From: a virus
Reading direction: 5' to 3' (one strand)
Length of the DNA: 45,600 nt
IMG/VR virus record: IMGVR_UViG_3300045977_000226
Coordinates: 1-45,600 of that record
Shown piece by piece: positions 13,171 through 29,254 of this stretch (the stretch's first letter is position 1; each line of letters opens with the position of its first letter). The position numbers and the translations under genes are program-made. The notes below the pieces were generated by a model. The model saw only the letters and a list, made by a program, of their open reading frames with translations. It made no database searches and was not told the origin of the DNA.

Positions 13171-13629
13171 TTAGTCGTCGTCGCCTAACTTGCGCGGGTC
13201 TAAGAACCACACGCGGAACTCGGATACGTACCCGTACATGCGGGCGGTCTCATTGTAGGAATATCGGTGGGCGCGAACGTTCTCGATCAGCTGAACGAAT
13301 AGCATCTCCGGAGGCGAACCGTCTGCGATTTCGCCATGGATCTCATCGTTCAGCGCTGCGATCACTGCATAGTCGAGGTCGCTCGCAAGATCGTTGTCGG
13401 TTCCAGGCTGGCCTTTGGCCGCAGAGAACGTATAGATCGTGCACTGCGTGAGCGCGCAACCACCCTCCAATGTGTCGACGGGCCGGAGCTCGCCCGAAAT
13501 GCCGATTTCAACGGCAGGCCCTTCAGTTCCCGCAGGAATTTCGCCGTTGTAGATTCGGTCGGAGGCAACTGCTAGTACGCCAGCATCGCCCGCGAGAATC
13601 GCGCCGATCGCGCGTTCCACTGTCATCAT
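13171..13629 (-). CDS. Tail terminator-like protein (DUF3168 type)
   Basis: A 152-residue protein. The opening (VERAIGAILAGDAGVLAVAS, RIYNGEIPAGTEGPAVEIG) and the later beta strands match the general pattern of tail terminator proteins of the DUF3168/gpU type, which cap the tail tube and dock it to the neck. ATG 13629 lies in a TGATG overlap with the preceding stop; a GTG one codon earlier is also open. It sits directly upstream of the major tail protein. Confidence 0.75.
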   Translation of the reverse strand: MMTVERAIGAILAGDAGVLAVASDRIYNGEIPAGTEGPAVEIGISGELRPVDTLEGGCALTQCTIYTFSAAKGQPGTDNDLASDLDYAVIAALNDEIHGEIADGSPPEMLFVQLIENVRAHRYSYNETARMYGYVSEFRVWFLDPRKLGDDD

Positions 13630-13988
13630 CACTGCACCCGCTCAGCTTCGATAATGGTCCAGCCCTCTTTGGGGAAGTGCATCGGCGCAACGATGTTCCA
13701 TGTGGAACTCCCAACCTTTTCCGCCATAACGATTCGGTTCTTATGCGGATCGATTCCAGTTCGATAATCGATTGCGAAGCGAGCCTTCTCTTCCGAGATG
13801 CGCGTGACGTCCGTGTCCACGGTGAGCTGGACCGGATTTTCCGAGGCGCCAAGGGGCTCAAATGAGCCCCAGACGGTGAAAGAATCGGCCCACTGCTCCC
13901 TGGCGGATTTGCTCTCCGTTGTGGCAATGGTGCGCGCCTGGAACGTCAGCTTGCGGTCGAGGTCTCCGGATCCGGATGGGAGCTTCAT
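13629..13988 (-). CDS. Head-tail joining protein / adaptor
   Basis: A 119-residue protein: LPSGSGDLDRKLTFQARTI at the start and WGSFEPLGASE, DYRTGIDPHKNRIVM further on match the small beta-barrel head-tail adaptors (PF05521 type, HK97 gp8/SPP1 gp16 kind). ATG 13988 overlaps the preceding stop (ATGA); the longer frame from 14165 lies inside another gene. It works with the terminator to join the head connector and the tail. Confidence 0.8.
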   Translation of the reverse strand: MKLPSGSGDLDRKLTFQARTIATTESKSAREQWADSFTVWGSFEPLGASENPVQLTVDTDVTRISEEKARFAIDYRTGIDPHKNRIVMAEKVGSSTWNIVAPMHFPKEGWTIIEAERVQ

Positions 13989-14713
13989 TGCATCAGCTTT
14001 TGAACGAACGGCGTCAGCCCGCGATGCTCTGGAGGCATCTCTCGCCATTTGACTGCGTTGTCGGAGAACACCTTGAACGTGACTGAAAAGTTCAGCTTCT
14101 TGCTCGTTTTGTTCTTCACCACGATTTCGACGTCGACCGTAGGCGATGCAGTAACGTTGACCCACGCGTCCGAGAATGCGCCGTGCAGGTCATCTTCCGC
14201 GGGATGCCAGCCTACGGTGTGATGCGCGAGCACGGCGACAAGCGCCTGAGCATTACCGAAGGTTGGATCGCCGTACAGCACCGCTGGCGTGTCCCTCGGC
14301 ACGTTGTTCGACTTCAACCACGGGATCGCATCGTAGTTTTTAATGTGGAACGAGAGATCGACGGCGTCAGCCTTGAGCCCTTTGCCTGGCGGAATTAGAG
14401 CCTTCACGGTAGCGTTCAATGGTCCGAGACAGTTACCAGACGCCCACCGGAAATAATTCACTTCGCGTACGCCGAGGGTGCCGAGTTCACGGATCGGGAC
14501 GACCTTGGTCTCATTACCATCCAGCGAGAGCTCCGTGCTGACCCACATTTGAGCGTCTTCGGAGAACGAGTTTTCCATCGTGGCGCACTGGTACGCGTTG
14601 CCGACTGCGCCATAGGTGATGATGATCGGCAGCGGGGCAAGATTGCCTTTCGCCAGGAGAGCGCCGGCCAGCGACAGAACGGTCGCGACAATGATGAGTG
14701 TCCTTGCTTTCAT
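13985..14713 (-). CDS. Putative secreted protein of unknown function
   Basis: A 242-residue protein with a clear signal peptide: basic start (MKARTL), hydrophobic core (IIVATVLSLAGALLA) and a likely cleavage near residue 21. The mature part is beta-rich and has NVTASPTVDVEIVVKN-like strands; no enzyme motif is recognised. It is placed between lysis genes and head-tail joining genes with ATGA/TGATG overlaps, so it is made late. A role outside the cytoplasm, in lysis or in shielding the released virion, is possible but unproven. Confidence 0.65.
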   Translation of the reverse strand: MKARTLIIVATVLSLAGALLAKGNLAPLPIIITYGAVGNAYQCATMENSFSEDAQMWVSTELSLDGNETKVVPIRELGTLGVREVNYFRWASGNCLGPLNATVKALIPPGKGLKADAVDLSFHIKNYDAIPWLKSNNVPRDTPAVLYGDPTFGNAQALVAVLAHHTVGWHPAEDDLHGAFSDAWVNVTASPTVDVEIVVKNKTSKKLNFSVTFKVFSDNAVKWREMPPEHRGLTPFVQKLMQ

Positions 14714-15144
14714 CACCCCTCCACCTTGATCGACTTCAGGAAATTCAGCCTGGCTTCGACCGCAAGAGACGCGGCCTGTGCCGCCTGATCCATGGCGAGT
14801 TTCAACGCCGCTTCGTCGCCAACTTTCCGGCCGGCCAGCGCGAACGATTCAGTAAACACGGTGAAGGCATGCGTCACCGCCACTGCCTTCTTCTGCTCCG
14901 GCGTCATTGTTCCGCCTGCGTCTTTCAGGTCCTTTGCGAAACCTTCGACGCCAGCGACGATCGCGTCAATGCGCGCGAAAACATCCGGACCATCCGCCGG
15001 CAGCGGAGTCGCGGGAATGTTGACGTTCTTTTCTAGAGCGGCCTTTCCAATCCCCGCCGCGATCGACACGCCCGGAGGACCAGCAATCGCGAGAGTCGTC
15101 AGCCCGCCTTCTGCCAGTTGTGTTAGGAGTGATTTCCAACCCAT
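14713..15144 (-). CDS. Hypothetical lysis-module protein (143 residues)
   Basis: The start overlaps the stop of the holin candidate (TGATG). The N-terminal 35 residues are hydrophobic and Gly/Ala-rich (LAIAGPPGVSIAAGIGKAAL) and could insert in or lie on a membrane. The rest is helical with a possible coiled coil (DQAAQAASLAVEARLNFL). It may act with the lysozyme and holin, but I do not recognise the family. Confidence 0.55.
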   Translation of the reverse strand: MGWKSLLTQLAEGGLTTLAIAGPPGVSIAAGIGKAALEKNVNIPATPLPADGPDVFARIDAIVAGVEGFAKDLKDAGGTMTPEQKKAVAVTHAFTVFTESFALAGRKVGDEAALKLAMDQAAQAASLAVEARLNFLKSIKVEG

Positions 15145-15395
15145 CAGTCACCGTCCTTTGGCGCGGGAGCGCCGATGTTTTTGTCTGCGTTGTTGTTGAG
15201 CCGTGAGATCCCGAGCGCCGTCAACAGTGAAGTGAAGGCCTCATGCGCGAGCTGGTCACTGGTGATCCAGTTCAGCCAGCGGCAAACGATCCCAGCGAAA
15301 ATCAGAACCGTGAGAATCAGGATCGCGCCGCCCTTCGTGGCCAGCGAATCCAGGAAGTGTTGCCACGCCGACATGTATTTGCCTGTGGGATTCAT
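15144..15395 (-). CDS. Putative holin (single membrane segment)
   Basis: An 83-residue protein with one membrane helix at about 23-40 (AILILTVLIFAGIVCRWL), a short charged N-terminus and a polar C-terminal tail. It begins in TGATG overlap with the lysozyme stop. Size, membrane segment and position directly after the endolysin gene are typical of a class III-like holin or a membrane regulator of lysis. No sequence family is certain. Confidence 0.6.
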   Translation of the reverse strand: MNPTGKYMSAWQHFLDSLATKGGAILILTVLIFAGIVCRWLNWITSDQLAHEAFTSLLTALGISRLNNNADKNIGAPAPKDGD

Positions 15396-15973
15396 CAGCT
15401 CTGCCTCGCGAGTTCAAGGGCGAGCGTGTGGCAGCGCATGAGACGCGCCCACCAGCCGGGATTCTTTTCGGCCATGCGCTCGCCAGTTTTTGGGTCTTTG
15501 GCTTCGTGATACATCTCGGCGCGCTTGGCCGCCACCATGTCGGCGAATTCGACGATCCGATCGGGAGAAACCATCTTGACCGCGGCGAGCGTTTTCGGAC
15601 CGATCGCGCCGTCCACAACGAGCCCAATCCCCAGCGCCATCGAGTTCAGCGCACGCTGCAGACATCGGCCACCGCCCTGGTTGACTGCAGAGTCGAACAC
15701 CAGAGCGGCGATCGCCGGCGGGAGCTCCCCGCAATGACAGAGATCGAAGTAGCCTTCGCGGTAGATCTTCACCGTGAGATCCATCGGCAGCAGCTGCATT
15801 GGGCCAGTCCAGCCCCACTTGCGTGCAACCGCTTCAGTGATGCCGCGCATCGTCTTTCCGCCGGGATCGCCGGGCCGATCCGAGTATTCGCCCTCGTGGT
15901 CGGGACGCAGAACGAACGAGAGCAAGCGCTGGAACAGTTGGTCTGTGGTCAGCTTGGTTGCGCGCTCAGCCAT
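15395..15973 (-). CDS. Endolysin: GH108 lysozyme (N-acetylmuramidase)
   Basis: A 192-residue peptidoglycan hydrolase. Residues about 12-100 carry the GH108 signature: a catalytic Glu in DHEGEYSDRPGDPGGKTMRG, followed by TEAVARKWG and the segment FDSAVNQG (about 107-114). The C-terminal part (VVDGAIGPKTLAAV) is the peptidoglycan-binding domain 3 (PG_binding_3) that pairs with GH108. ATG 15973 is chosen because the frame further upstream runs into the glycosyltransferase gene. There is no signal peptide, so release needs the holin. Confidence 0.9.
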   Translation of the reverse strand: MAERATKLTTDQLFQRLLSFVLRPDHEGEYSDRPGDPGGKTMRGITEAVARKWGWTGPMQLLPMDLTVKIYREGYFDLCHCGELPPAIAALVFDSAVNQGGGRCLQRALNSMALGIGLVVDGAIGPKTLAAVKMVSPDRIVEFADMVAAKRAEMYHEAKDPKTGERMAEKNPGWWARLMRCHTLALELARQS

Positions 15974-16008: not shown

Positions 16009-16683
16009 TTACCTCGGAAATTCCTTTGGAAGAACTTCGAGCGGTTTCTTTCGGTATTGCTCGCAATCGACGTCCTTGGGATAGGAATTCCCCGGATGGA
16101 TTCTCGCCACCATCAGTGCGCCGCATTCTAGGTTCAGGAGTTGATCCTGGCTGTGCGCTTTCCGCGAGAACACGCCGTCCTCTCCGTACCAGGCGCCGGT
16201 CTTTGAATGCTTGCCCAGGCCGGTTTCCGGAAATGGATGGGTGGCCCACCAGGAACGACGAAAACATAGCGAGGTTCCGAGGCTGTAGTCCGCCGCGTTG
16301 CACCGCCAAAGATACGGCGCGGATCCATCCCAAAAAAGCATCGATCGATATCCAGTCACAGCCTTGCCAGACTCCTCGAGCGCTTTCATCTGCGCGGAGA
16401 TCCGCCCGGGCGCGCTCCAATCATCCGAATCCCATCGCACGATGATCGCGGCCGCCGATTCCTGGCACATGCGATTCAATTTCGTTGAGATCGGCCGGCG
16501 CGTGGGGAGTGTGTCGATCCGAACGCGCTCTGGCGGAATGAAGCCAGCATGGAAAGAGGGATCATCGGCGTCCTGGATGACGCGGAGCTCTTTGTCTGGA
16601 TAGTCCTGCGCGAGAAAACATTCGATCGCGAGCTGGGCGAGCCGTTGTCTCCCGCGCACGGGCATGATCGCCGTAACGTTCAT
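16009..16683 (-). CDS. Glycosyltransferase family 2-like
   Basis: A 224-residue GT-A fold enzyme. N-terminal nucleotide-sugar binding start (VTAIMPVRGRQRLAQLAIEC), QDYPDKELRVIQDADD, and a metal-binding DxD in VRWDSDDW at about 82-89. It is the last gene of a five-gene sugar-modification set and overlaps the kinase-like gene (ATGA). No membrane segment. Donor and acceptor unknown. Confidence 0.85.
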   Translation of the reverse strand: MNVTAIMPVRGRQRLAQLAIECFLAQDYPDKELRVIQDADDPSFHAGFIPPERVRIDTLPTRRPISTKLNRMCQESAAAIIVRWDSDDWSAPGRISAQMKALEESGKAVTGYRSMLFWDGSAPYLWRCNAADYSLGTSLCFRRSWWATHPFPETGLGKHSKTGAWYGEDGVFSRKAHSQDQLLNLECGALMVARIHPGNSYPKDVDCEQYRKKPLEVLPKEFPR

Positions 16684-17150
16684 TGGAGACGCAAACTCCG
16701 TTCGAAACTCGCGCGATCGTCAAACTTCCACGCTGGCCAGCCCGCTCGATATCGGCCGCCAAGGCCGGCTGGCCAGGTCGCCGGCGGATCCTCGTCAATG
16801 GTGGCCCATTGCCAATCGATCAGATAAAGGCGTCCGTTCTGGACCGTCACATTTTCCGGACGGATATCGTTGTGACGGATCATGCGCCTGGCCAAATCAG
16901 AAAGAATCGCATCCATTTGTGCTCTCATGTCGCGTGGGCGCACAGCCGACGCCACGTTGGATCCCACGTATTCCATGGTGATTTCGTTGGCAGCAGGGTT
17001 CGCTTCGATTAATCGCGGCGTGTACCCGGATCCGTGGAGCAACGCCAGGAACGTGAGTTCGCGCTCCACGATCCCGTACTCGAGATAGCGGTCAACGCGC
17101 TTGATGATCGTGTTGCCAAGGTGGACTACGGACGATGTTTGAGGCGCCAT
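16680..17150 (-). CDS. Protein-kinase-fold small-molecule / sugar kinase-like protein
   Basis: A 156-residue protein with the core of the kinase fold (aminoglycoside/lipopolysaccharide kinase type): catalytic loop MIRHNDIRPENV (HxDxxxxN) and metal-binding LIDWQWA. The N-lobe is short but has a Lys-containing strand (GNTIIKRVD) and an ERELTFLALL helix. ATG 17150 is preferred over the longer frame. In a glycosyltransferase cluster it could phosphorylate a sugar, as Kdo/heptose kinases do, but the target is unknown. Confidence 0.75.
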   Translation of the reverse strand: MAPQTSSVVHLGNTIIKRVDRYLEYGIVERELTFLALLHGSGYTPRLIEANPAANEITMEYVGSNVASAVRPRDMRAQMDAILSDLARRMIRHNDIRPENVTVQNGRLYLIDWQWATIDEDPPATWPAGLGGRYRAGWPAWKFDDRASFERSLRLQ

Positions 17151-17764
17151 AGACGGCGGGCCCCTCCGTGCAGGGCGGTCGTGTCGATCAACTCCCGATG
17201 CGCAAACCACCAGGATAGATATCGATCCTCATCTGCAGCGCTGCGCAGGAAATCCACGGTAAACATGCCCCGCGAATCTGCGCCGGCCGTCTGGAAGAAA
17301 CAGCGATCGGCAACGTTAGCGATGCGGTTCATCATGTCGCTCGCGACGCCCTGCTTCACCCACCACATGTGGACGTTCAGCGCGAGCACGGTGACCGGGC
17401 GTGGAAACTCCGCTGGCGTGAGACCGAACAGTTCCTCCGAACAGACGTTGAGGCCGCACGCCCGCGCGATCGCCAGCGCGGCGGGATCCCGCTCGTATCC
17501 CTGCGCGAGCGAATAGCCGGAGAGGCCTGCCAGGTAATATCCGGTGGAACATCCGACGTCGATCAACGTGCCCTCGTGACCACCAGCGTCGCGGATAACG
17601 CCAAACGTGTGGCGCACTGCGTCAGGCCAGTGACAGGGAACATTCTGCAGTTCCGGAACGAAGTCGCCCATTGGTTGGTAGAGCCATCCCGCGCGCGTGG
17701 ATGAGCCATCACGGTATGGGCCGGAGCCGAGTTGGGCAATGGCTTCAGCGAGCACGCTCGTCAT
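17126..17764 (-). CDS. SAM-dependent methyltransferase
   Basis: A 212-residue class I methyltransferase. Motif I is LIDVGCSTGYYLAGL (about 68-82), followed by an acidic residue ending strand 2 (YERDPAAL), and VLALNVHMWWVKQG as the motif IV area. Within a sugar-transfer set it may methylate a sugar or the acceptor. It overlaps the kinase gene by 25 bp and starts in ATGA overlap with the preceding glycosyltransferase. Confidence 0.85.
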   Translation of the reverse strand: MTSVLAEAIAQLGSGPYRDGSSTRAGWLYQPMGDFVPELQNVPCHWPDAVRHTFGVIRDAGGHEGTLIDVGCSTGYYLAGLSGYSLAQGYERDPAALAIARACGLNVCSEELFGLTPAEFPRPVTVLALNVHMWWVKQGVASDMMNRIANVADRCFFQTAGADSRGMFTVDFLRSAADEDRYLSWWFAHRELIDTTALHGGARRLWRLKHRP

Positions 17765-18561
17765 GCCCGACAGCTTATTCGCGACGGCGCCGGGTCGAAG
17801 ATGAGACTGGTTGGATCGCTCGCAAAAAATCGTTCTTCAAAGATCTTTCGAAGCGCTTCTTCTCCCTGCTTTTCCAGAACGGTCCAGAGATTCCGCCAGT
17901 GTGCGGACATCGTGGGCGGCCGCTTGCCGGCTATTATCGCTTCCATGCCGTTGCGGATTTTGGTGACGAGCTGGCCCGGTGAGCGATAAGGGAAGTGGCG
18001 CAGACCGATGAACTCTTCGTGATGCCCGACGGGCTCGCCGGCAATCCGGATCCCGTGATTGCCGTCAATGATCGAGGCCTGCGGATGCCAGCGGAACGCA
18101 CATTTGAAATTGCCGATCGGCGATTTCTGGCGGTAACGCATCCGCGTGAACGGATTTGAATCAGCAGGATCGTCAGCCGCGGTTGCCATGTGATTCCACC
18201 GGCGGGCGAGGACGCACGGCGCGGCCGCCGGAACCTTGCGCAAATATGACGCGAGCGGCAGGCCTGGCGCGTACCACAGTTCATCCGCGTCGAATGGAAT
18301 GATCCAGGTCGCCCCGCGGTCTGCAGCCCGCCTGGCGAGCGCGGTCATCTTCCGTCCTTGGAAATACGCTGGATCGGGATCGTCGACGATTTCAACGGGG
18401 ATCCGCACGGCCGCGGCCGCTAGCTGGATTTCGCGGCGGGTGGCGTCTTTCGAGAGGTTGTCCGCAATGGTGATCCCGTTGACGCCTTCGGCCGCGAGAT
18501 GACGGATGGTGTAGCCGATGATGTCCGCCTCGTCGCGGACCATGGTGACGGCCCAGATCAA
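17761..18561 (-). CDS. Glycosyltransferase family 2 / 92-like
   Basis: A 266-residue GT-A enzyme: MIWAVTMVRDEADIIGYTIRH at the start is typical of the GT2/GT92 group, and the metal-binding DxD is in IIPFDADELWY (about 87-97). A later HHEEFIGLRHFPYRSPGQ fits the catalytic region of related enzymes. It is co-transcribed with four other modification genes through ATGA overlaps. The acceptor could be virion protein or cell-surface glycan; the sequence does not decide. Confidence 0.85.
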   Translation of the reverse strand: MIWAVTMVRDEADIIGYTIRHLAAEGVNGITIADNLSKDATRREIQLAAAAVRIPVEIVDDPDPAYFQGRKMTALARRAADRGATWIIPFDADELWYAPGLPLASYLRKVPAAAPCVLARRWNHMATAADDPADSNPFTRMRYRQKSPIGNFKCAFRWHPQASIIDGNHGIRIAGEPVGHHEEFIGLRHFPYRSPGQLVTKIRNGMEAIIAGKRPPTMSAHWRNLWTVLEKQGEEALRKIFEERFFASDPTSLIFDPAPSRISCRA

Positions 18562-20084
18562 CTGAGGGATCCCCAGAACCCCCTGTTCGCTGTCGTGAGT
18601 GCGCTCGCGATATTCATGATCCGCCGCATTCCCGTGTGGCGCGCCTGCGACAGGCGCCAGCCGCGCTTGCGGATCCGCTCACACTCGTCCGGCTTCGCGG
18701 AGTACTCCTCAATGAGCGCGCGCGCCTCATCGATCTTTGTCCAGAAGAGAACGTGCTTTCGGTGCTCGAACAGATCATCGCAACCGGGAAATCGCTTCAC
18801 GAGCGCGAGACCGCCAAAGGCGAGGATGTCGTATGTCCGCTGCGACGTGTAGCCGTTGGCGCCGGGTGACATCGACAGAATGAATTCATATTGCCGGTAG
18901 ATCTCCCGGGTCTTTCGGTAAATGTCATCGCGGGCCGACGTACCTTCTTTGAAGTTGATGTGCGTCGCTCCCAGAGCGGCGACTACTTCACGGCGTCCGG
19001 AATGGAACCGTTGGTTCTCGAGATCTCCGATGAACAGCGTCTTGCCGCGCAGCTCGAGCGGCGCGAGCTCCGGATGAATGCGGCAGCCCTGCGGCATGTA
19101 CGTGACGCCGGCGCTGCCGAGAAGCTGCGACCAGGCATCCCAAGAATACTCGTCAGTGTGTTTGAAGCAGAGAAACGCCCGGTTGATGCGGTATGGAGCG
19201 AGACGCCCGGCTTGATACTCCGCGGCGGTCCGCAGGTCATTGAACCAGAATCCCCGCGGGCAGGTGACTCCCTTGAGCGCTTCAACGCCCCGCATCATCT
19301 GCGGCATGCCGCTGCAGACAATCACCGCGCCGGGCTTCCAGTCCTTAAGCTCGTCGGCCGTGACGGTCGCCAGTGAAAAATGCTTCACTGTGCATCGCTC
19401 ACGCGCGAACTCCTTCACCGCGTCATCGATGCCCGCCCAGAGGGGACCGGGCATGCCGGGCCCGTATCCCAGGATCGCAATGCGAAGGTTCCAGTTGAAA
19501 CTCAGCTGACGCGGCCAGAATTCATTGCGCAGCCAAACCTCTTCCTGCTGGCGCTGGACCGCGCGCACCGACGCGCCGGACGCGTGCAGAACCCACACCG
19601 GATTGGCCACGAACTTTCGCCGCAGCCGCAGCATGAGATTCGATTCCTGCCCGTAGAACGTGAAATCCTCTCGAAAACCGCCGGCCGCGATGACGGACGA
19701 TCGCCGCAGCAACAAACAGAATCCGGACAGCTGGTCCGTTGGTGTGACGCCCGGGCCGGTGGGGCCTTTTTGTGACATCGCTCCCGCGCGATCGGATTTA
19801 GGCCCGACGGCGTCGGCGGCCTCATCACCAGCCACCTGGAGCATGCGCTCGAGCCATTGAGCTTCCACCACCGCGTCCGAATTCAAGAGACACACGAATT
19901 CGCGATCGCTCCGAGCAATAGCCTGGTTCCACACGTGGGAGAGATTCGCGTCGCGTTGCCAGTTGTCGATGACGGTCAGCTTGTGGCGAGTGAGGTCAGT
20001 GTGCGCGGCGACGGCCTCAAGACAGCGCCGCTCCAGCTCCGGCTGGCCATACAGGAGGACGATGATTTCAGCGGAGGGAGTCAA
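18558..20084 (-). CDS. Two-domain glycosyltransferase (GT2-like plus GT-B/CgeB-like)
   Basis: A 508-residue fusion. Residues 1-200 form a GT2 domain (EIIVLLYGQPELERRCLEAV; FVCLLNSDAVVEAQWLERM with the DxD-like NSDAVV; GGFREDFTFYGQESNLMLRL). Residues about 205-500 resemble a GT-B C-terminal domain of the CgeB/group 1 type (YEFILSMSPGANGYTSQRTYDILAFGGLALVKR, where an SQRTYDILAFGG block marks the donor site). It is the first gene of the cassette and overlaps the preceding membrane protein by 17 bp. Two transferase activities on one chain suggest sequential sugar addition. Confidence 0.85.
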   Translation of the reverse strand: MTPSAEIIVLLYGQPELERRCLEAVAAHTDLTRHKLTVIDNWQRDANLSHVWNQAIARSDREFVCLLNSDAVVEAQWLERMLQVAGDEAADAVGPKSDRAGAMSQKGPTGPGVTPTDQLSGFCLLLRRSSVIAAGGFREDFTFYGQESNLMLRLRRKFVANPVWVLHASGASVRAVQRQQEEVWLRNEFWPRQLSFNWNLRIAILGYGPGMPGPLWAGIDDAVKEFARERCTVKHFSLATVTADELKDWKPGAVIVCSGMPQMMRGVEALKGVTCPRGFWFNDLRTAAEYQAGRLAPYRINRAFLCFKHTDEYSWDAWSQLLGSAGVTYMPQGCRIHPELAPLELRGKTLFIGDLENQRFHSGRREVVAALGATHINFKEGTSARDDIYRKTREIYRQYEFILSMSPGANGYTSQRTYDILAFGGLALVKRFPGCDDLFEHRKHVLFWTKIDEARALIEEYSAKPDECERIRKRGWRLSQARHTGMRRIMNIASALTTANRGFWGSLS

Positions 20085-20301
20085 TCCGGCCTTCCACGCG
20101 CCCCAGGCGCCACTCGATATTTTTCAACCGCTCCTCAATGACGTCGCGGTTGGCGCCGAGGTCCCTCGAGATGCTCGTTTCCATGCTTTGGATCCGCTGC
20201 CAGATCATGCCCAGCGCGAATACGAGCGCGATCAGCTTGACTACCAGGTCAGGAGTCAGCGGGAGACCCAACAGTGTTTTGCCGTTGCCGTTCTCAGCCA
20301 A
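20068..20301 (-). CDS. Small membrane protein with coiled coil
   Basis: A 77-residue protein with one membrane segment (LVVKLIALVFALGMIW) followed by a coiled coil (SRDLGANRDVIEERLKNIEWRLGRVEGRIDSLR). I choose TTG 20299-20301 because GGAGG lies nine bases upstream; a TTG at 20334 is open but has no signal. It overlaps the connector gene and the first glycosyltransferase. Similar architecture occurs in lysis-associated or anchor proteins, but the direction of the domains differs from XhlA. Function unknown. Confidence 0.6.
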   Translation of the reverse strand: MAENGNGKTLLGLPLTPDLVVKLIALVFALGMIWQRIQSMETSISRDLGANRDVIEERLKNIEWRLGRVEGRIDSLR

Positions 20302-20923
20302 TTTTGGCGCCCTCCAGCAGCGCTTTGATGCCAATGGGAATCTGCTTCAAGTCGAGCGCGGAGGTTTCCTCTCGGTACCGGTAGAAGTGCCCACACAACA
20401 GGAGCACGCCATGAATAAAACGGGCGGGGACATCTGAGGTGAATCCATAGCCGCAGCTCGCGCGGACTACTACCGCGTTGAGTGCATCCGCGGTGGCCGG
20501 CCATGAATAACCTGGGTTGAGCCCGATGAACGGTCGCACGGGATCTCGCTGCAGGAAGTACTCGAGAACCGACGGGGGAGAACCGTCATCGTACGAACCG
20601 AATGACTGGCTGGCTCCGGACTCGTCGCGATAGATGATCGACTCGATCGACTGGACTGGCTTCGGCCACAGTTCAATTTCACCGCGGCCTTCCGGGAAAC
20701 GGCTCAACGTGATGTCCCAGGCCTGCGTCAGCAGTACTTCGTTGCTCAGCTTTTGGGCGTGATCGATCGCGGTAGGAATCCAGACGTTTGAGATGATCGC
20801 GTCATGATCGTCATTCTGAATTTTGCAGTGGAGCTTGACAGTAGCGAGATCGACGATGAGCCCCGAAGGAGGCGAGACCAGACGCGGAAGCGGTCTCCTG
20901 CCGTCTGGTCTGAATTGCCGCAT
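20294..20923 (-). CDS. Head-tail connector, HK97 gp6-like
   Basis: A 209-residue protein with the pattern of the gp6-like connector family: VDLATVKLHCKIQNDDHDAI near the start (the usual 'LaevK.hLRid.d.eD' block), IDHAQKLSNEVLLTQAWDITL, then beta strands (IELWPKPVQSIESIIYRDE) and a helical end (VPARFIHGVLLLCGHFY). Such proteins form the dodecameric ring below the portal. It follows the capsid genes. ATG 20923 has AGGAAGG-type sequence upstream. Confidence 0.85.
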   Translation of the reverse strand: MRQFRPDGRRPLPRLVSPPSGLIVDLATVKLHCKIQNDDHDAIISNVWIPTAIDHAQKLSNEVLLTQAWDITLSRFPEGRGEIELWPKPVQSIESIIYRDESGASQSFGSYDDGSPPSVLEYFLQRDPVRPFIGLNPGYSWPATADALNAVVVRASCGYGFTSDVPARFIHGVLLLCGHFYRYREETSALDLKQIPIGIKALLEGAKIG

Positions 20924-21509: not shown

Positions 21510-23138
21510 TTACGACCGGGTCTGGAGCGTGACGGTGCAAGAACGCGTGTTCGAACCGTTCTTCGGCGTGATGGGGTTGTTCCACCACGGCTTGCCACCA
21601 CAGCGCAGAATGAAGCGGAACGCCGTGACGTCATAGTCGAAGAACAGGTGGATCGACACGTCCTGGCGCAGGCCCTGCGTCTTCATCAGAGACAGGTACT
21701 GGTTGAGATCCGTCAGGATGATGTCGCCCTCTGTCCCCAGCTCCTTGGCCGATTCGTGCGAAATGATCGGCTTACCGAAGAGCGTCGCATACGGGCTGCC
21801 CGACAAACCGCCCGGAGGCAGAAAGACCGGTACCGCCGTTCCCGTCCCGGGGAACTGCATGCCGTACAGCTGAGGCTCCACGTCCTGATTGATGATCCAG
21901 ATCGCATTTTTCCGGCAGCCCTTATAGAGCCGGGAATACATGTTCACGATGTTCTTGAACAGGATCGGATCCGCAGACGTCTGCGACATCTCCTTGTCGA
22001 CAGTGATCTTCGGAGCGCCCGCCAGGATGCCCAGCGGCATACCGGCGCCCGTGCCACAGAGAATCGCGTCGGAAACCTTGAACCCGATCTTCTCCGGGGC
22101 TTTCTTGTTGATATACCCCGTCAGCGTTCCCGCGTCCTCGAGCAACTCGTCCGTGACCGGAACCATCGCGGTCAGCTTATGGAGCTCAAGCGTGCGGCTT
22201 TCCAGCGCAACCTTCGACTGCGCGATCAGCTTCTGCTCGCCGGTCCAGTAAGCCTGGATCCCGCCGGTCTGCTGCCATGGCGTGGTTTCGTCGATCGGGA
22301 TGGTCACATTGTTCGAGCTCGTGGTCAAACGGTCAGTCCGCCCAGCGAGATCGTCCTCCGCGTCGACCTTCTGCATGATGGTGTTCCGGAAATCTGGAGG
22401 AACCAGAAACCCGCCATCCGCTCCCGTGCCCTCGCTCGAGGACGTCGACGGCGCCGCATTCGCGATCAGGCGCGGATCGATGTTCTGAGCGCCCTTTGCA
22501 GACGCATGCAAAACGGCCTTGCCGAATTCGCCGACCGACACGAATCCAAACTTGCGGTCGTCATTCTCGGAAGAGTGACGAGTTCTTGCAGCCTCGCCAT
22601 ACGCGGGCTGTTCGCCCACGGTCTTTCGGCCAGCCGGCTGGCTCAGCTTTTCGCTGGCCGCGGCAATTCGCGTCCGGCGATCGATGTCTTCAACCGTCGA
22701 GTTGAAACGCGCCTCGAGGTTGTCGATCATCGTTTTCTCGTCCGCCGTCAACCCGCGCTTCTCGGTGTCCGCCTTGTCCTGGATCCGCTTCATCTGATTC
22801 GACAGATCGAGCGCCAGCTCGCGCAGGCTGTCGATCGTCGGCGTGTCATTGCGGAATCGCACGTGTGGACTCGCCGTCCGCCGGAGAAATTCCTCGAGCT
22901 CCGTCATGCTCATTGGGCGCGCCGAGGGTACGGCCAGCGGCATCACCGCCAGGCTGTAGCCGGCCGCGGCCGCGGAGGGTTCCGCCATCGCCGTGGCGGC
23001 GATCATGCAGACGATCATCACGGTCAACGCCGCGATACCGATGGGACCGAGAATATCAAATCGATTGGGTTGGGCCGGCGTCACCGACGTGCAGAACTGA
23101 ATGGCCCACCACCGCTTTTTGTCTTTGATGTGATTCAT
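21510..23138 (-). CDS. Major capsid protein precursor, HK97 fold, with N-terminal membrane-like segment
   Basis: A 542-residue capsid precursor. From about residue 76 it follows the HK97 plan: helical delta/scaffold domain (MTELEEFLRRTAS ... LDLSNQMKRIQDKADTEKRG ... RFNSTVEDIDRRTR), linker, then the capsid fold (GGFLVPPDFRNTIMQKV; LESRTLELHKLTAMVPVTDELLEDA; GAGMPLGIL; FDYDVTAFRFILRCGG). Residues 1-75 are unexpected: a basic start (HIKDKKRWW), a hydrophobic helix at 29-52 and an AMA-E site. ATG 23138 has GGGGAG eight bases upstream, whereas M76 lacks a good site. Probably processed by the neighbouring ClpP-like protease. Confidence 0.93.
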   Translation of the reverse strand: MNHIKDKKRWWAIQFCTSVTPAQPNRFDILGPIGIAALTVMIVCMIAATAMAEPSAAAAGYSLAVMPLAVPSARPMSMTELEEFLRRTASPHVRFRNDTPTIDSLRELALDLSNQMKRIQDKADTEKRGLTADEKTMIDNLEARFNSTVEDIDRRTRIAAASEKLSQPAGRKTVGEQPAYGEAARTRHSSENDDRKFGFVSVGEFGKAVLHASAKGAQNIDPRLIANAAPSTSSSEGTGADGGFLVPPDFRNTIMQKVDAEDDLAGRTDRLTTSSNNVTIPIDETTPWQQTGGIQAYWTGEQKLIAQSKVALESRTLELHKLTAMVPVTDELLEDAGTLTGYINKKAPEKIGFKVSDAILCGTGAGMPLGILAGAPKITVDKEMSQTSADPILFKNIVNMYSRLYKGCRKNAIWIINQDVEPQLYGMQFPGTGTAVPVFLPPGGLSGSPYATLFGKPIISHESAKELGTEGDIILTDLNQYLSLMKTQGLRQDVSIHLFFDYDVTAFRFILRCGGKPWWNNPITPKNGSNTRSCTVTLQTRS

Positions 23139-23178
23139 GGATTCAACTCCCCAAAAAGTGTTTGTTTGCGATCTCGAA

Positions 23179-23979
23179 CTAGGTGGTGGGCTGGCCCAGC
23201 CATTGGCGATTTGACAACACGCTCGCCACGCGCGCGAGTGCGGGATGCGGCGCTGGCGCCGTTCCCTCCGTCTCCACAGTGGAGACAGTTTCTTTTTCCG
23301 GCGGCGGCGCAGCCGCGCGTCCGATCGCCGACTTCAGCGATGCCGGAACATTTCTGAAATTCTTGATGTCGTGACCCGCCATGGCCGCAACTCCGACTTC
23401 CACGTCAGAGACGGAATCGGCAAACCCGTTTTCTACGGCTTCGTCCGCCGTGAACCAGGTCTCGGCGGTCATCCACGCGGTGACGTCGGATTGTTTCTGG
23501 CCCGTCCTCGCGACGTACGTGTCGACGATCGTGGTTTTCATTTTGTCGAGAGCATCGGCCGCCTTGCGCATCTCTTCGGCTGTTCCCACGGCAAAGCCCC
23601 ACGGATCGTGGATCATCATCAGCGCGTTCTTGGACATCACAATCGAGTCGCCGGCCATCGCAATCACGGAGGCGATCGACGCGGCCAGGCCGTCGACCTG
23701 AACGCGGATCTCGGCGCGATGGCGCTTCAGCTGGTTGTAGATCGCCACGCCGTCCATCACCGAGCCGCCCACTGAGTTGATGAAGACGTTCAGGACCTTC
23801 ACGTCGCCCAGCGCTTTCAGGTCGGCGGCGAACTGTTTGGCAGTGACGCCATCCCAGGAGTCGCCGACAATGTCGTAGATGTAGATATCGGCGCTGTCCG
23901 CCTTCTTCTCCATCCGAAACGGCTTGCGCTCGCCACCAGAACCCGGCCCGTTTAAAAACGCCCAGCGTCTCCGATTCAT
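23179..23979 (-). CDS. Prohead protease, ClpP-like (S14/SppA-type)
   Basis: A 266-residue serine protease that matures the head. The ClpP fold is clear: YDIVGDSWDGVTAKQFAADL, INSVGGSVMDGVAIYNQLKR (oxyanion Gly-Gly), the nucleophile Ser in VDGLAASIASVIAMAG, the catalytic His in ALMMIHDPWG, and a third residue near KMKTTIVDTYVARTG. The last 60 residues are a Pro/Glu-rich tail. ATG 23979 overlaps the portal stop (ATGA). It should cut the capsid delta domain. Confidence 0.92.
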   Translation of the reverse strand: MNRRRWAFLNGPGSGGERKPFRMEKKADSADIYIYDIVGDSWDGVTAKQFAADLKALGDVKVLNVFINSVGGSVMDGVAIYNQLKRHRAEIRVQVDGLAASIASVIAMAGDSIVMSKNALMMIHDPWGFAVGTAEEMRKAADALDKMKTTIVDTYVARTGQKQSDVTAWMTAETWFTADEAVENGFADSVSDVEVGVAAMAGHDIKNFRNVPASLKSAIGRAAAPPPEKETVSTVETEGTAPAPHPALARVASVLSNRQWLGQPTT

Positions 23980-25634
23980 TGAATGGCCCCCTTTACGATT
24001 CCGGCGAATTCCTCGCCGAGCTCATCCGCGCGCGCGTCAATGTCACGCCATGCGCGCAACCGGGTTCCATCGTAAGCCGCCACGAGCTCTCGATAATCCT
24101 CACGTGTCCGTTCTTCAGCTGCTGCGATCACGAACGATTGAGCGTTTCGAATTTTCGATTCGTAGCGATCGCCGGCAACGCTGACCAAAATCTCGATGGT
24201 CTCCGCAATCTGACTGGCCACGTATTGGAGCTGTCCGGTCTTCTCCGGATCCATCAGATCGCGGAATTCCTGGGCGGTCTTGCTGCGGATGGACTCCGCA
24301 CGATGAAGGTGACGGCGCATACAGCGGCGCATCGACGCGGCAAACAATGCCCGGGCCGCTTCCGTCAGGCGTGGCGCCGGATCCGCTGACGCCGGCTGCT
24401 TCGCTGCAGGAGCAGTTTCACCATTGGCCACGGCCTCGAGTGTAGTCAGCTGACTTTCCACCGTGAGCACGTCGCCTTCGGAGCCGACGGAATTGAATCC
24501 ACGCCGCCGGCGGACTTCGTTTCTACGGAGCAGGCCATTGCGGACGAGAATCGCATCCGTCTCCGCCTTCGATTTCGCGTCGCCCTCGGCCGCCCATTCC
24601 AGGTCGCAGCGCACGGTGATAGGCCCAGCCGGCAGGACTTTGAAATCGATCTCTTGCTCGCAGCGCTTCGCCCACGGTCGTAGCGCGTCGCGCTGAAACT
24701 CAATGCCCTGGTGTTCGATGTTGCCGAACGTCGCGCGATCCAGCTGGGCAATCTTGTGCGGTGGCACACCACACCAGCGGCAGACCTCGTTCACCATGAA
24801 GTCGCGGAGCTCGCGGTTTTGGCCTTCATTGAGAGTCGATGTAATGGGCGTCCATTTCATGCCGCTCCCGAGCACCAGGAACCTGAAGGCGTTTTCAGGA
24901 CCGGACACGCGCTTCTCCACCTGAGCCCGGATATCGTCGAGTTCCTTCTGATCGAGTGTGCTGTCGGTCGACAACACGCCGCCCATCGCGGTACCGTGCT
25001 GGAAATATTTCAGACCGAACGTGTCTGCAGCGGCCGCCTGCAACAGTCCACGCGCCGCAGTGGACACGAGATCAAGTCCGCAGGTTCCATCGAGACCGAC
25101 GCCGTGAATGTGGTACACGTCGGCGTATGGAAGGAGCGTGGGCGGCTTGCCGAAGTTCGTCACTCGCAGCTGCAGCGCGCCGGATTCCCCGCGCTCGAGC
25201 GTGCAGCGGTTCGGATAGATCGGCCAAATGGCCGCAGGCCTGCCGACGCGATCGCGTTCGATTTCTCCGTATGAATTTCCCCACAAAAGCGCCACGGCGA
25301 CGGTCGCCTGGTGGAATGAAATCGGCGACATTTCAAGGTTCGGCCGAACATTGAGGATCCGGTATGCCGTAGATCCCGGCATGTAATCCCGGTCGCCATT
25401 GGGCTGTTCCAGGAAGATCTCCCACGTGGATGAGCCGATCGCTTCGGAGATCACCCGCATGCAGGCCCAGAGCGCGGAGATCTTGATCGCGTCCTCGTGG
25501 GTGATGAATGCGGCGCCGACGCCGGGAAGCACCGCCAGCACGCGGTTCGAGTAACCGCCGGACCAGTCTGGCTGCGTCAGCCGCGCCAGCGCTCCCGGCC
25601 GTTTCTGATCGAGCAGGTCCGCGAGAAGGCCCAC
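23976..25634 (-). CDS. Portal protein, HK97 family
   Basis: A 552-residue portal. Characteristic segments: ALWACMRVISEAIGSSTWEIF (clip/wing start), AYRILNVRPNLEMSPISFHQ, VALLWGNSYGEIERDRVGRP, MVNEVCRWCGVPPHKIAQLDRATFGNIEHQ (nearly the family consensus 'evarafgvPp.llg....ty.nieq'). It forms the dodecameric vertex for DNA entry. The C-terminal 120 residues are helical. The start is GTG; a purine-rich stretch lies upstream. Confidence 0.95.
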   Translation of the reverse strand: MGLLADLLDQKRPGALARLTQPDWSGGYSNRVLAVLPGVGAAFITHEDAIKISALWACMRVISEAIGSSTWEIFLEQPNGDRDYMPGSTAYRILNVRPNLEMSPISFHQATVAVALLWGNSYGEIERDRVGRPAAIWPIYPNRCTLERGESGALQLRVTNFGKPPTLLPYADVYHIHGVGLDGTCGLDLVSTAARGLLQAAAADTFGLKYFQHGTAMGGVLSTDSTLDQKELDDIRAQVEKRVSGPENAFRFLVLGSGMKWTPITSTLNEGQNRELRDFMVNEVCRWCGVPPHKIAQLDRATFGNIEHQGIEFQRDALRPWAKRCEQEIDFKVLPAGPITVRCDLEWAAEGDAKSKAETDAILVRNGLLRRNEVRRRRGFNSVGSEGDVLTVESQLTTLEAVANGETAPAAKQPASADPAPRLTEAARALFAASMRRCMRRHLHRAESIRSKTAQEFRDLMDPEKTGQLQYVASQIAETIEILVSVAGDRYESKIRNAQSFVIAAAEERTREDYRELVAAYDGTRLRAWRDIDARADELGEEFAGIVKGAIQ

Positions 25635-25636
25635 GG

Positions 25637-25924
25637 TTATTCGTGCCTCTTGAATCGGATTTCCTGGATCGGCGGATGCGGATGCTGAATCGGCGCGAAT
25701 GAGGGATGCTCAAACATCCCGCAAACCATTGCACGCTCCTCGTCAATCCAGACACGGAGGAGCTTCGCGTCCGGCGGGATCCCATCGCAGGAAAGCGTTT
25801 CCGGACCGCGCGTGCGGAATACCTGCCACCATAGGCCGGCGTCAACCTGGACGATGCGGACCCGGGTTGGCGTGAATGGACTCGCTTCGGCCGCGGCCGC
25901 GGAAGGTTTTTGTTGCTTGCTCAT
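25637..25924 (-). CDS. Small hypothetical head-module protein (95 residues)
   Basis: It begins in ATGA overlap with the preceding membrane protein gene and ends just before the portal start. Segments VRIVQVDAGLWWQVFRTRG and LLRVWIDEERAMVCGMFEH suggest a small beta domain. No known family. It could assist the portal, but nothing shows this directly. Confidence 0.55.
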   Translation of the reverse strand: MSKQQKPSAAAAEASPFTPTRVRIVQVDAGLWWQVFRTRGPETLSCDGIPPDAKLLRVWIDEERAMVCGMFEHPSFAPIQHPHPPIQEIRFKRHE

Positions 25925-26127
25925 TTGATCCATTTCCAAAGAGGTTTGAGGGACAACAGCAGAATCGCGCCGGCGGCGATCGCGCCAGCGCGCGGGTCAT
26001 AACAGGCAACGCCGATCGTGAGCAGGATCCAGCCCGCCAGGAACGACAGCCCATCCACGCCGAGCTTGATCACACCGTCATAGACCGCGCCTACACCGTT
26101 GCTGACGATCTTCCTAACGCGTTTCAT
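25921..26127 (-). CDS. Small membrane protein (68 residues)
   Basis: One or two hydrophobic segments: LSFLAGWILLTIGVACY and AGAIAAGAILLLSL, with basic residues at both ends (MKRVRK, KPLWKWIK). It starts in TGATG overlap with the large terminase stop. A membrane protein between terminase and portal is uncommon; together with the hydrophobic capsid N-terminus it hints at membrane-linked head assembly, but this is speculation. Confidence 0.55.
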   Translation of the reverse strand: MKRVRKIVSNGVGAVYDGVIKLGVDGLSFLAGWILLTIGVACYDPRAGAIAAGAILLLSLKPLWKWIK

Positions 26128-27701
26128 CACATCCACACCGCAATCGGCTTTCCGAGCTTGGGCATGTGCGCTATCACGCTCGCGTGCCCGGTGATCATCG
26201 CGGACATGCCGTCTATGCGTTTATTCGTCTTCAACCGGTTCACCTTCACGGGCTTGATGTTTCCTGCCGCGTCTGCATCGACCGAACAACAATCGGCCAT
26301 CCAGGAGAGCACCGGATTGTTCCCGTGGCGCAGCGACCGATTCATCATCAACCGCTCGATGTCTTTCGCTGGCGCCGACAGCGACGCGAACCCCTGCCCT
26401 GTGGGCTTGATCGTAAATCCGTCGGACTGCAGCTGTGTGGTGATCTGGGTAGCGTTCCACCGATCATTCGCAATTTCTTTGATGTTGTAGATTTCTCCCA
26501 GTTCATTGATTCGCTTTCGAACGAAGTCAAAGTCGATGATGTTGCCATCCGTCAGCTCGATCAGTCCCTGCTTCGCCCAGCGGTCATAGGGCACGTTGTC
26601 CTTCTTGGCCCGGCGGATGATGTCGTGCTTCGGCAGCCAGAAAAACGGAAGAACGAAGAGCTCGTTCCCGATTGGGAACAGCAGAACAAACGCGGTGATG
26701 TCTTGAGTCGTCGACAGATCCATTCCGGCAAAGCAGCTCTTCCCGGCCAGGTCATGGACGTTGAAAGGCGCGCCGCACGCGTTCCACTCATGCATCGGCA
26801 GCCAGCGCATCTCCTGGCCGAGCCATTCATTGCCGCGCAGCCGGCGGAAATTGTTTTGTTCGGATGGCAGGAGCTTCGCCTTCGCCGCGGCCGCGCGCAC
26901 CTTGTCGATCCGGAGGAAGTCGCCGAGCGCTGGATTGGAGGCGTACCACCCGGTGGCTGGCTTCCCCTCCTTTGCGGGTTCGCCCTCGAAGTCCCACTCA
27001 TCCTCATCGCGTTTGGCGTAGATGACTGGGTAAAAGTTCGGATCGTTGATCACTCCCTGCAGGATCTGCCGCGCATATTCATGCTGATCCCAACAGATTG
27101 GAGATTCCCCGGAGATCCCCGCCGTCGTGATCGCCACAAGCAGGGGTTGCGATCGCGTGTCCGATCCCAGGCTGAGAACGTCCCAGAGATCGCGGTTCTT
27201 TTGCCGGTGCAGCTCGTCGTACACCACCATGTGAGGGTTGATGCCGTCCTGGGCGCCGACGTCGGCGGAGATCGCGCGATAGAACGAATTGCGATCGCTC
27301 TTCAGGTAGATCGTCTTCGTTGAATCCACGATCCGGCACATGGCGTTCAGCTCCGGATCATTGCGCACCATCTGCGCCGCCACCCGGAACACGAGCCCCG
27401 CCTGGTCGCGCGTCGACGCCGCCGAATAGATTTCGGCGCCCGGCTCGTCGTCGATCAGGAGACCGCCCAGCGCCAGGCCGGCCGCGAGCTCGGTTTTCCC
27501 GTTTTTCTTTGGAACCTCAATGTAGGCGGTGGAGTACTGCCGATACCCGGTCTTCTCGTTAACCGTGCCCATCAGGTCGGTCACTATCTTTTTCTGCCAT
27601 TGCGGGAGAAGGAACGGCTGTCGCGCGAAGAGGCCCTTCGTGTGGGTCAGGCACTTCTCGAAGAAGTTGGTCCAGATCCGCGCTCGAACTTCATCGTACA
27701 C
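26127..27701 (-). CDS. terL: Terminase large subunit
   Basis: A 524-residue DNA-packaging motor of the HK97/Terminase_1 type. ATPase: Walker A-like IEVPKKNGKTELAAG (about 62-76), Walker B MVVYDELHR (about 158-166) and a coupling segment ITTAG. Nuclease: FAGMDLSTTQDITAF with the first metal-binding Asp (about 335-350) and later acidic residues (NIIDFDF). The start is GTG with GAGG upstream. It works with the P27-like small subunit and probably the HNH nuclease. Confidence 0.96.
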   Translation of the reverse strand: MYDEVRARIWTNFFEKCLTHTKGLFARQPFLLPQWQKKIVTDLMGTVNEKTGYRQYSTAYIEVPKKNGKTELAAGLALGGLLIDDEPGAEIYSAASTRDQAGLVFRVAAQMVRNDPELNAMCRIVDSTKTIYLKSDRNSFYRAISADVGAQDGINPHMVVYDELHRQKNRDLWDVLSLGSDTRSQPLLVAITTAGISGESPICWDQHEYARQILQGVINDPNFYPVIYAKRDEDEWDFEGEPAKEGKPATGWYASNPALGDFLRIDKVRAAAAKAKLLPSEQNNFRRLRGNEWLGQEMRWLPMHEWNACGAPFNVHDLAGKSCFAGMDLSTTQDITAFVLLFPIGNELFVLPFFWLPKHDIIRRAKKDNVPYDRWAKQGLIELTDGNIIDFDFVRKRINELGEIYNIKEIANDRWNATQITTQLQSDGFTIKPTGQGFASLSAPAKDIERLMMNRSLRHGNNPVLSWMADCCSVDADAAGNIKPVKVNRLKTNKRIDGMSAMITGHASVIAHMPKLGKPIAVWM

Positions 27702-27710
27702 GGTGAGACC

Positions 27711-28208
27711 TCAGCTCGAGGCCAACCTCTCCCGCAGCTGTTTCTGCGGAACCTCCATGATGATGTTCGCGCGCACGCGGCCGATCGCCGTCAGGCACAT
27801 ATCATTGCCCAGCTGGCGCATCATCTCCCGCTCGCGTTTGGACACCCAGCTCCAGGGATTCTCATGCTGTGCGCCGGCATCCGTTTTGAGGATGCTGCCC
27901 TCTTTATCGAGGTGGCCCTCGGCTTCAATGAACCGGGCAAACGAGGCGCAGTAGGCCGCCAGGTGTCCGCGATCTGTCCGGCCGAGCAGCCCCAGTTCCT
28001 CCAGAATCGGAACCAGCCGCCGCCATTCCTTTTTGGCTTCCTTCGACAGCTCCTTCGGGCAGGTTGGCCGGACCGTATCGGCGCGGAGTTTTTTGCCGCC
28101 TCCATCACCGCCATCAGTGGATGACGGTCCGGATCCGGGTATCGGGCGGTGGCCCGGATTACCCTCGACGGCCCTCAAGTGTGGTGGCCTGGGGGGGCGC
28201 CCTCTCAT
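27711..28208 (-). CDS. terS: Terminase small subunit, P27 family
   Basis: A 165-residue DNA-recognition subunit. Diagnostic segments are the opening RPPRPPHLRAVEGNPGHRP, CPKELSKEAKKEWRRLVPILEELGLL, DRGHLAAYCASFARFIEAE and a C-terminal ENPWSWVSKREREMMRQLG. The P27 family is usually paired with HK97-type large subunits, as here. It begins in ATGA overlap with the preceding small gene. Confidence 0.93.
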   Translation of the reverse strand: MRGRPPRPPHLRAVEGNPGHRPIPGSGPSSTDGGDGGGKKLRADTVRPTCPKELSKEAKKEWRRLVPILEELGLLGRTDRGHLAAYCASFARFIEAEGHLDKEGSILKTDAGAQHENPWSWVSKREREMMRQLGNDMCLTAIGRVRANIIMEVPQKQLRERLASS

Positions 28209-28447
28209 CGTTGACCCTCCCCCCCTTCAATTTCGCGGGCGCTTTCAGCCGGGGCGCGAGCGGTCGCCAGCGTCGGAGCCGTAGAGACTGGACCCCCGTC
28301 GGGGTGCTCCATCGTCAACGCGATCCCGTGCATGTCGATCTCGCCATCAGTTCCGAAGGCGTGCTGATAGCCAGCAGCTTCGAGCTTGTTGCGGATCTCT
28401 TTGTAAGTCTCCCAGGAGACATCCAGTAAAGCGTATGTATGGCTCAT
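28205..28447 (-). CDS. Small hypothetical protein (80 residues)
   Basis: It lies between the HNH nuclease and the small terminase with ATGA overlaps at both ends, which fixes the start at 28447. The N-terminal part (YALLDVSWETYKEIRNKLEAAGY, GEIDMHGIALTME) resembles a small alpha/beta domain seen in phage hypothetical proteins; the tail is Ala/Glu-rich. Function unknown. Confidence 0.6.
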   Translation of the reverse strand: MSHTYALLDVSWETYKEIRNKLEAAGYQHAFGTDGEIDMHGIALTMEHPDGGPVSTAPTLATARAPAESAREIEGGEGQR

Positions 28448-28812
28448 CGATCCAGTACCTCCGTTCCTGATTTGCGATTGTGGCAGTCCGTGCACAGCCC
28501 CTGATGATTGGAGTGCAACCAAAACAAAGAGCGATCCCTGCGATGGGGCTTCTTATGGTCGACAACGTCGGTCAAACGAATGATTCCTTGCTTGGCGCAT
28601 TCCTCGCACTCGACATGGTTTCTGCCGCAGAGCGAACAGTTGCGTTGCCGCTTGAACCATGCGGTGTAGTCCTTCCAGCGCCGTGTGTAGCCGCGCTCGT
28701 CAGTCGTTCCGCGCACGTCCTGATAAGGGCTGCGCCTCCCATGATCTGGACATGGTTGCGAGTGCGGACACCGAGGGTAGTAACGGCAGCGTGGAGCGAT
28801 TGCATTCGGCAT
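28444..28812 (-). CDS. HNH endonuclease
   Basis: A 122-residue nuclease beside the terminase genes. Cys pairs NCSLCGRNH and ECEECAKQG bind zinc; the HNH core is VVDHKKPHRRDRSLFWLHSNHQGLCTDCHNRK, with His in VDHKKP, N in HSN and the final CHNRK. In HK97-like phages a neighbouring HNH protein stimulates terminase cutting at cos, so a similar role is likely. It starts in TGATG overlap with the zinc-finger gene. Confidence 0.9.
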   Translation of the reverse strand: MPNAIAPRCRYYPRCPHSQPCPDHGRRSPYQDVRGTTDERGYTRRWKDYTAWFKRQRNCSLCGRNHVECEECAKQGIIRLTDVVDHKKPHRRDRSLFWLHSNHQGLCTDCHNRKSGTEVLDR

Positions 28813-29231
28813 CAGGCGGAACCGGCTTTCCTCGTGGCCTGACCTCCACGCCTCTCGGTGTGATCTTCCCTCTTGTGAATGCTGAGGGCGTGAGCGTCAG
28901 CGAAATCCTTCCGGCAGAAGTTACACGTCAGTGAATGCTCATTGGCCTTGTGGATCTCGAGCGCGCGAGCGTCAGGAAAACCTTTCGCGCAATAACTACA
29001 CTTTTCCGTTTTCGGGAAAGACGCTCCTTCGCACGCAATCCGATGCCGCCCTTTCCCGGACCCAGCCATGACGCGGCCGCAGTCAGGACACGTCCATGGA
29101 GCACTGGGCGCACGCTTCCTGGTAGAGCCGTCAGATGAGACTTTGCCGGCGGATCCTTCCAGCGCATTGATTGCCGTTTCGATGCGGGCGCGCTCCTGGC
29201 GAAGCTGTTCGATGATTGAATTCACACTCAT
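28812..29231 (-). CDS. C2H2 zinc-finger protein
   Basis: A 139-residue protein. The N-terminus is a helical or coiled segment (SIIEQLRQERARIETAINAL), then a CPDCGR Cys pair with a distant H/C set, then two tandem C2H2 fingers: CSYCAKGFPDARALEIHKANEH and CNFCRKDFADAHALSIHKREDH-type units of the C-x2-C-x12-H-x4-H pattern (each 22 residues long). Tandem classical fingers are rare in bacteria and phages. The place before HNH and terminase suggests DNA binding near the packaging site or in late regulation. Confidence 0.8.
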   Translation of the reverse strand: MSVNSIIEQLRQERARIETAINALEGSAGKVSSDGSTRKRAPSAPWTCPDCGRVMAGSGKGRHRIACEGASFPKTEKCSYCAKGFPDARALEIHKANEHSLTCNFCRKDFADAHALSIHKREDHTERRGGQATRKAGSA

Positions 29232-29254
29232 TTGTCGTTACCGCTCCCTGATCC

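Follow-up and report, generated by a model that had tools for sequence, protein, structure and literature searches.

The DNA analysed here, called the window below, is the entire 45,600-base IMG/VR record IMGVR_UViG_3300045977_000226. Annotation with Pfam, PHROGs and HMMs identified a temperate siphovirus prophage on its minus strand. The genes follow the order integrase (33388-34560), replication genes, terminase, portal, protease, capsid, connector, a cassette of predicted glycan enzymes, endolysin and holin, head closure, tail tube, tape measure and tail tip. The left end (about 1-1667) carries plus-strand genes (6-1667) for an FA_hydroxylase/OlsE-like protein (PF04116, 1.1e-25) and an anti-sigma-like protein, and judging from these genes it is likely to be host DNA flanking the integrated prophage end. 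A metagenome contig of 7,974 bases (L016) is 100% identical to positions 22097-30070; thus, this part of the structural region has been assembled twice. The contig stops short of the cassette, which lies outside the duplicated part.

The cassette occupies 20084-16009 on the minus strand. It consists of five intact, translationally coupled open reading frames between the connector and the endolysin, as an earlier note on this sequence had described, and successive frames overlap by 4, 4, 25-85 and 4 nt. The first gene (18558..20084) encodes a glycosyltransferase fusion of 508 aa, in which an N-terminal GT-A domain (GT2, PF00535, 3.2e-9) is followed by a C-terminal GT-B-like domain (PF13524, 1.8e-15). 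The second (17761..18561) encodes a soluble GT-A glycosyltransferase of 266 aa with a match to PF13704 (Glyco_tranf_2_4, 1.8e-10). The earlier label for this protein, GT92-like, has to be replaced because the Pfam GT92 model gave no match and PF13704 alone was reported at E up to 1. The third gene (17126..17764) encodes a SAM-dependent methyltransferase of 212 aa with the motif IDVGCSTGYY. Its Pfam match (Methyltransf_23, 0.039) is below the cut-off, and the assignment is based on an alignment at 35% identity with a clear methyltransferase (L025:8027-8575; PF13649, 8.2e-10) found at the same site in a related phage.

The fourth gene (16680..17150) encodes a small kinase of the APH/RIO/Bud32 type, carrying an HNDIRPEN loop and the metal-site DW. 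In Pfam/NCBIfam it matched APH (5.9e-6) and RIO1 (4.3e-5), both above the gathering score, and Bud32 (5e-9), below the cut-off of that model. The product has 156 aa if translation starts at the ATG at 17150, which is better spaced and has GGAGGGG upstream, or 176 aa from the alternative GTG at 17210. The fifth gene (16009..16683) encodes a GT2 glycosyltransferase of 224 aa (PF00535, 3.5e-8) with a WDSDDW motif. Apart from the second protein, the enzyme classes proposed before (GT2/GT-B fusion, methyltransferase, kinase-fold protein and GT2) were all upheld. By hydropathy analysis, all five proteins lack transmembrane segments. Single-sequence AlphaFold2 models were of low confidence (pLDDT 33 for the methyltransferase and 42 for the kinase).

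The neighbours of the cassette described here are likewise on the minus strand, and the late-operon position suggested in the earlier note is upheld. The upstream border is the gp6-like head-tail connector (20294..20923; PF05135, 1.4e-6; phrog_442), and the downstream border is the head-closure (Hc1) or head completion protein (13629..14165; phrog_25, 2.6e-7; also placed by our HMM map). We refer to the interval between them as the slot. It also contains a GH108 endolysin (15395..15973; PF05838, 2.3e-21), whose start, from inspection of start codons, is probably 15973, 35 nt past the GT2 stop. A probable holin (15144..15395) was assigned from its single transmembrane segment in the hydropathy plot and its position after the endolysin. 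Between connector and cassette lies an 88-aa open reading frame (20068..20334) with one transmembrane segment (hydropathy) and a coiled coil; a short transmembrane frame of 78 aa occurs at the matching place in two other contigs (L034:823-1059 and L035:8543-8779). A scan for promoters and terminators gave signals at or below chance.

The slot is empty in three relatives, namely the Bradyrhizobium prophage ppBdUSDA122-1, the Tritonibacter plasmid p5 and a Paraburkholderia phymatum prophage. Their capsid proteins are 35-38% identical to that of the window. In each of them the connector gene and the head gene after it adjoin or overlap by a few bases, and no glycan genes are present. Therefore, the cassette is accessory and is located at the connector junction. 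The three hosts, together with the GH108 endolysin, suggest that the host of the window phage is proteobacterial.

We then considered what other phages carry at this site. A direct search with the slot GT2 found one relative (L015/L022), immediately upstream of a head-closure gene, after which come relatives of the next head and tail genes of the window. A profile built from these two sequences retrieved 50 viral loci, and comparison with PHROGs gave weak matches at most. The GT2 loci were mapped with local HMMs for connector, head closure, tail tube, capsid, portal, terminase and tape measure. The GT2 genes closest to that of the window lie in the head-tail block. Such a gene immediately precedes head closure in L022, L024/L039, L026, L028/L029, L030 and L032, and it follows the connector directly or at a short distance in L027, L033, L034/L035 and L050-L052. 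In L025, whose sequence is continued by L026, it is in the post-connector interval. A possible exception is L037, where, judged by eye, head-closure-like genes seem to precede the GT2.

The partners of this enzyme are exchanged around it. When the slot proteins of 13 contigs were clustered, only the GT2 was general; its presence in the window, L050 and L051, where a greedy ORF caller had skipped it, was taken from the HMM map. Depending on the phage, it either closes the cassette or opens it. L030, L032 and L039 have in common an extended gene order with several glycosyltransferases and methyltransferases, and L030 additionally has a GDP-mannose dehydratase (GDP_Man_Dehyd, 8e-130) and a dTDP-4-dehydrorhamnose 3,5-epimerase (dTDP_sugar_isom, 4.5e-52). 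L022 has a sugar aminotransferase (DegT, 2.3e-37). The L025 slot contains a weak radical-SAM match, glycosyltransferases and three methyltransferases, and the one related to that of the window directly precedes a gene whose product contains the P-loop-like sequence GGTAVGKK. Among the 59 slot proteins surveyed, 20 had PF00535, about 10 were methyltransferases, four had PF13524 and four were GT47. The dehydratase, the epimerase and the aminotransferase are single cases, and the APH-type kinase was found in the window only. Partner genes are thus swapped around a conserved GT2 at a conserved site. The search for the same gene order proposed in the earlier note therefore had a divided outcome: the site and one GT2 are conserved, but the five-gene set is not, and no other contig searched contained all of it.

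No homologue of the fusion glycosyltransferase was found by an exact-peptide scan of viral and genome contigs or by tblastn of phage records, and none of the methyltransferase or the kinase by the same scan of viral contigs or by tblastn of phage records. The PF13704 enzyme has 13 viral relatives at 34-47% identity, and relatives on two Parafrankia contigs. Several of the 13 lie among glycosyltransferase genes close to head or tail genes. The other four cassette genes were unrecognisable on these 13 contigs, except for a weak local match to the fusion protein in L002. Phage GX15bay (L017:7684-12807) has seven adjacent glycan genes (glycosyltransferases and a methyltransferase) just upstream of the terminase, and these include a 36% relative of the PF13704 enzyme. 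In a related phage (L012:4845-8398), the capsid and connector genes are separated by GT-B, GT2 and PF13704 genes, at a place one gene ahead of the slot.

Phylogenetic analysis grouped the slot GT2s. The 13 slot sequences and two others formed one 15-row set with 100/99 support, and 25 other viral GT2s fell outside it. The slot label required three changes on the tree, against a mean of 11.3 after shuffling, and none of 500 shuffles was as low; near-identical pairs such as L050/L051 are included in these counts. The clade has members on ten or more viral contigs that are distantly related to each other, and these lie, in nearly all cases, between connector and head-closure genes. The DSDD motif, a Glu-Asp pair, a His and an Asn are invariant in 12 of 12 slot sequences at 27-55% identity, so the gene is not decaying, and the decay in relatives that had been named as a possible refutation is not seen. 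The enzyme has the features of the GT2 family (GT-A fold, DXD, catalytic acid and PF00535 match), and the slot-GT2 profile matched solved GT-A enzymes in the PDB, namely heparosan synthase (6e-15) and chondroitin synthase (2e-12). Because of these matches and the invariant catalytic residues, the slot GT2 is very probably an active glycosyltransferase. Its divergence correlates with that of Hc1 (rho 0.39, Mantel p 0.005) but with neither that of the connector nor that of the portal, so strict vertical inheritance is unsupported.

Glycosyltransferase genes in virion operons have been described in mycobacteriophages. Phages of cluster O have an O-methyltransferase and three glycosyltransferase genes in the virion operon (Corndog gp35-gp38), and the enzymes were detected in infected cells but not in purified virions (PMC4351075). 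Later papers, citing earlier work, state that these enzymes modify capsid and tail tube (PMC11600133; PMC12363180). The cluster O operon (Corndog gp35-gp38; Catdawg 33-36) resembles the cassette in having overlapping methyltransferase and glycosyltransferase genes within the virion operon. However, it is located between portal and protease and has no kinase, whereas the cassette lies between connector and Hc1 and has one. Che8 gp108-gp110 is also a glycosyltransferase trio for virion glycosylation, in which gp108 has a GT2 domain joined to a methyltransferase-like half, but these genes lie outside the virion block of Che8, at the right end of its genome. Soluble, mutually coupled glycosyltransferase genes, the trait of the Corndog and Che8 types, are present in the window within the virion operon. 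Homology to the essential glycosyltransferase (Che8 gp110 / Corndog gp38) or to the other cluster O glycosyltransferases was not found when blastp and the slot-GT2 profile were run against Che8 gp108-110 and Catdawg 33-36, which are close relatives of the Corndog proteins, and the profile score for Che8 gp108 (3.4e-8) is no better than generic, since an E. coli GT2 scores 1e-6. Therefore, the comparison with Corndog means that the cassette would work in a similar way, not that it is a member of that group. The statement in the earlier note that no system of this exact composition was described was too strong, given the Corndog operon (PMC4351075). No description of a glycan slot between connector and Hc1 was found in open-access papers, the coverage of which is incomplete. 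What is new here is that the site is fixed and its GT2 conserved, that pathways are swapped around this gene, and that relatives with an empty site serve as a control.

Two other arrangements were tried and rejected. The order methyltransferase then kinase, and the HxD[IV]RPxN loop common to both kinases, suggested a methyl-phosphate cap like that of the O-antigen chain terminator WbdD. WbdD is one fused protein, whereas the window has two separate genes, and no specific similarity was found: the alignment of the kinase with WbdD covered no more than 52 aa, at 36% (E 0.005 in a blastp against four sequences), and WbdD structures were absent among the PDB phmmer matches. Serotype conversion of the Gtr type uses a flippase (GtrA), a membrane-bound GtrB and a multi-transmembrane GtrC. 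The cassette has no transmembrane segments and no such Pfam families.

On this evidence we consider it probable that the cassette is an accessory module whose cytoplasmic enzymes attach glycans to virion proteins while the particle is assembled, like the Corndog-type operon. The five soluble enzymes would be made together with head and tail proteins, and the glycosyltransferases would use nucleotide sugars to assemble a short glycan on a structural protein of the capsid, the head decoration or the tail tube. The chemistry of this glycan would then be adjusted by the methyltransferase and the kinase, for example through O-methyl or phosphate groups. The slot GT2 may perform a step common to related phages, possibly the addition of a protein-linked sugar or a core sugar, and the swapped partner genes would vary the remaining glycan. 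The likely benefit would be an altered particle surface, which would affect stability, conceal the particle from binding or grazing, or control adsorption. The absence of transmembrane segments suits cytoplasmic protein acceptors, and because the enzymes are soluble, made with head and tail genes and unaccompanied by a flippase or lipid-linked steps, structural proteins would be the simplest ones. A Ser/Thr-rich tail that tracks the cassette was not found on the capsid or the tail tube, which counts against a virion acceptor.

The idea of a glycan for either the virion or the cell surface had been put forward in the earlier note; it stands, and the sequence is compatible with both acceptors. 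The main rival, possible at a lower probability, is that the target of the enzymes is a polysaccharide of the host surface, or the cytoplasmic precursor of one. Such a modification, made in the lysogen or at a late stage of infection, would keep released particles from sticking to debris or would exclude rival phages. Several slot enzymes come from families common in surface-polysaccharide pathways, and comparable loci have been read by their authors in this way. Pelagimyophages have a variable, glycosyltransferase-rich host-recognition island at a fixed site by a neck gene, interpreted as O-chain modification (PMC7029224), although these are T4-like myophages and the island is 45 kb long and includes tail fibres. 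Gratiaviridae have a HipA kinase and a glycosyltransferase between portal and capsid genes, interpreted as modifying the host envelope (PMC8008677), but that set has two or three genes, another kinase family and no methyltransferase. However, neither the cassette nor the slots examined contain a flippase, a polyprenyl-phosphate transferase or a multi-transmembrane enzyme. The position between connector and Hc1 would imply late expression, which is late for protecting a cell, and no promoter-like site for separate expression in the lysogen was found on the coding strand, although this is a weak test.

The slot may also just take late cargo, as it holds lysis genes too, and this counts against a virion glycan. 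It is unlikely that the junction is a general cargo site in which glycan genes ride as passengers (morons) without a joint function. The interval in the window does contain the endolysin, the holin and two unknown genes, partner genes vary freely, and the whole set is unique to this contig. However, the five genes are all intact, with coupled translation, the contents of the slots are overwhelmingly glycan enzymes, and the catalytic residues of the GT2 are kept over deep divergence. A passenger role is thus unlikely for the GT2, while the kinase, the methyltransferase and the fusion enzyme, which have little or no comparative sign of selection, may be passengers. Phage glycosyltransferases can also glycosylate DNA (PMC12619734), but action on modified bases of the phage DNA is very improbable here because no enzymes for hydroxymethylated or hypermodified bases were recognised among the annotated replication genes, where several proteins are unassigned. 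The cassette is also in the virion block, away from the replication genes.

Returning to glycosylation of the virion, we tentatively suggest that, in a broad group of temperate siphophages, the connector/head-closure junction might serve as a "virion serotype locus". The GT2 would start or anchor a glycan on particles under assembly, and entire pathways for making and transferring sugars would be swapped at its flanks, as in the O-antigen loci of bacteria; in the window the glycan would bear methyl and/or phosphate groups from the methyltransferase and the kinase. If this is true, particle glycosylation extends beyond the mycobacteriophages and is a modular trait that environmental temperate phages have as well, apparently those of Proteobacteria. 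There would be a defined genomic site with an empty-site control and interchangeable pathways, and the purpose of virion glycans could be tested by swapping or deleting the cassette within one phage. The slot is also a source of small, co-transcribed and unstudied glycosyltransferases.

Several other genes of the prophage are worth recording. A protein from the tail-tip region (6192-7268) has a concanavalin A-like lectin domain (PF13385, 9.2e-9) and is a candidate sugar-binding adhesin. Two separate ParB-like genes (30449-31336 and 38136-39797) are present in this one integrase-carrying phage, and a DUF5131 gene (35203-36147; PF07505, 3.7e-65) adjoins the replication genes. Near its early end the phage has a minus-strand gene for tRNA-Met (CAT; 43320-43392). 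A small protein (28812-29231) with C2H2 zinc-finger matches (PF13894, 1e-8), unusual for a phage, is encoded next to an HNH endonuclease.
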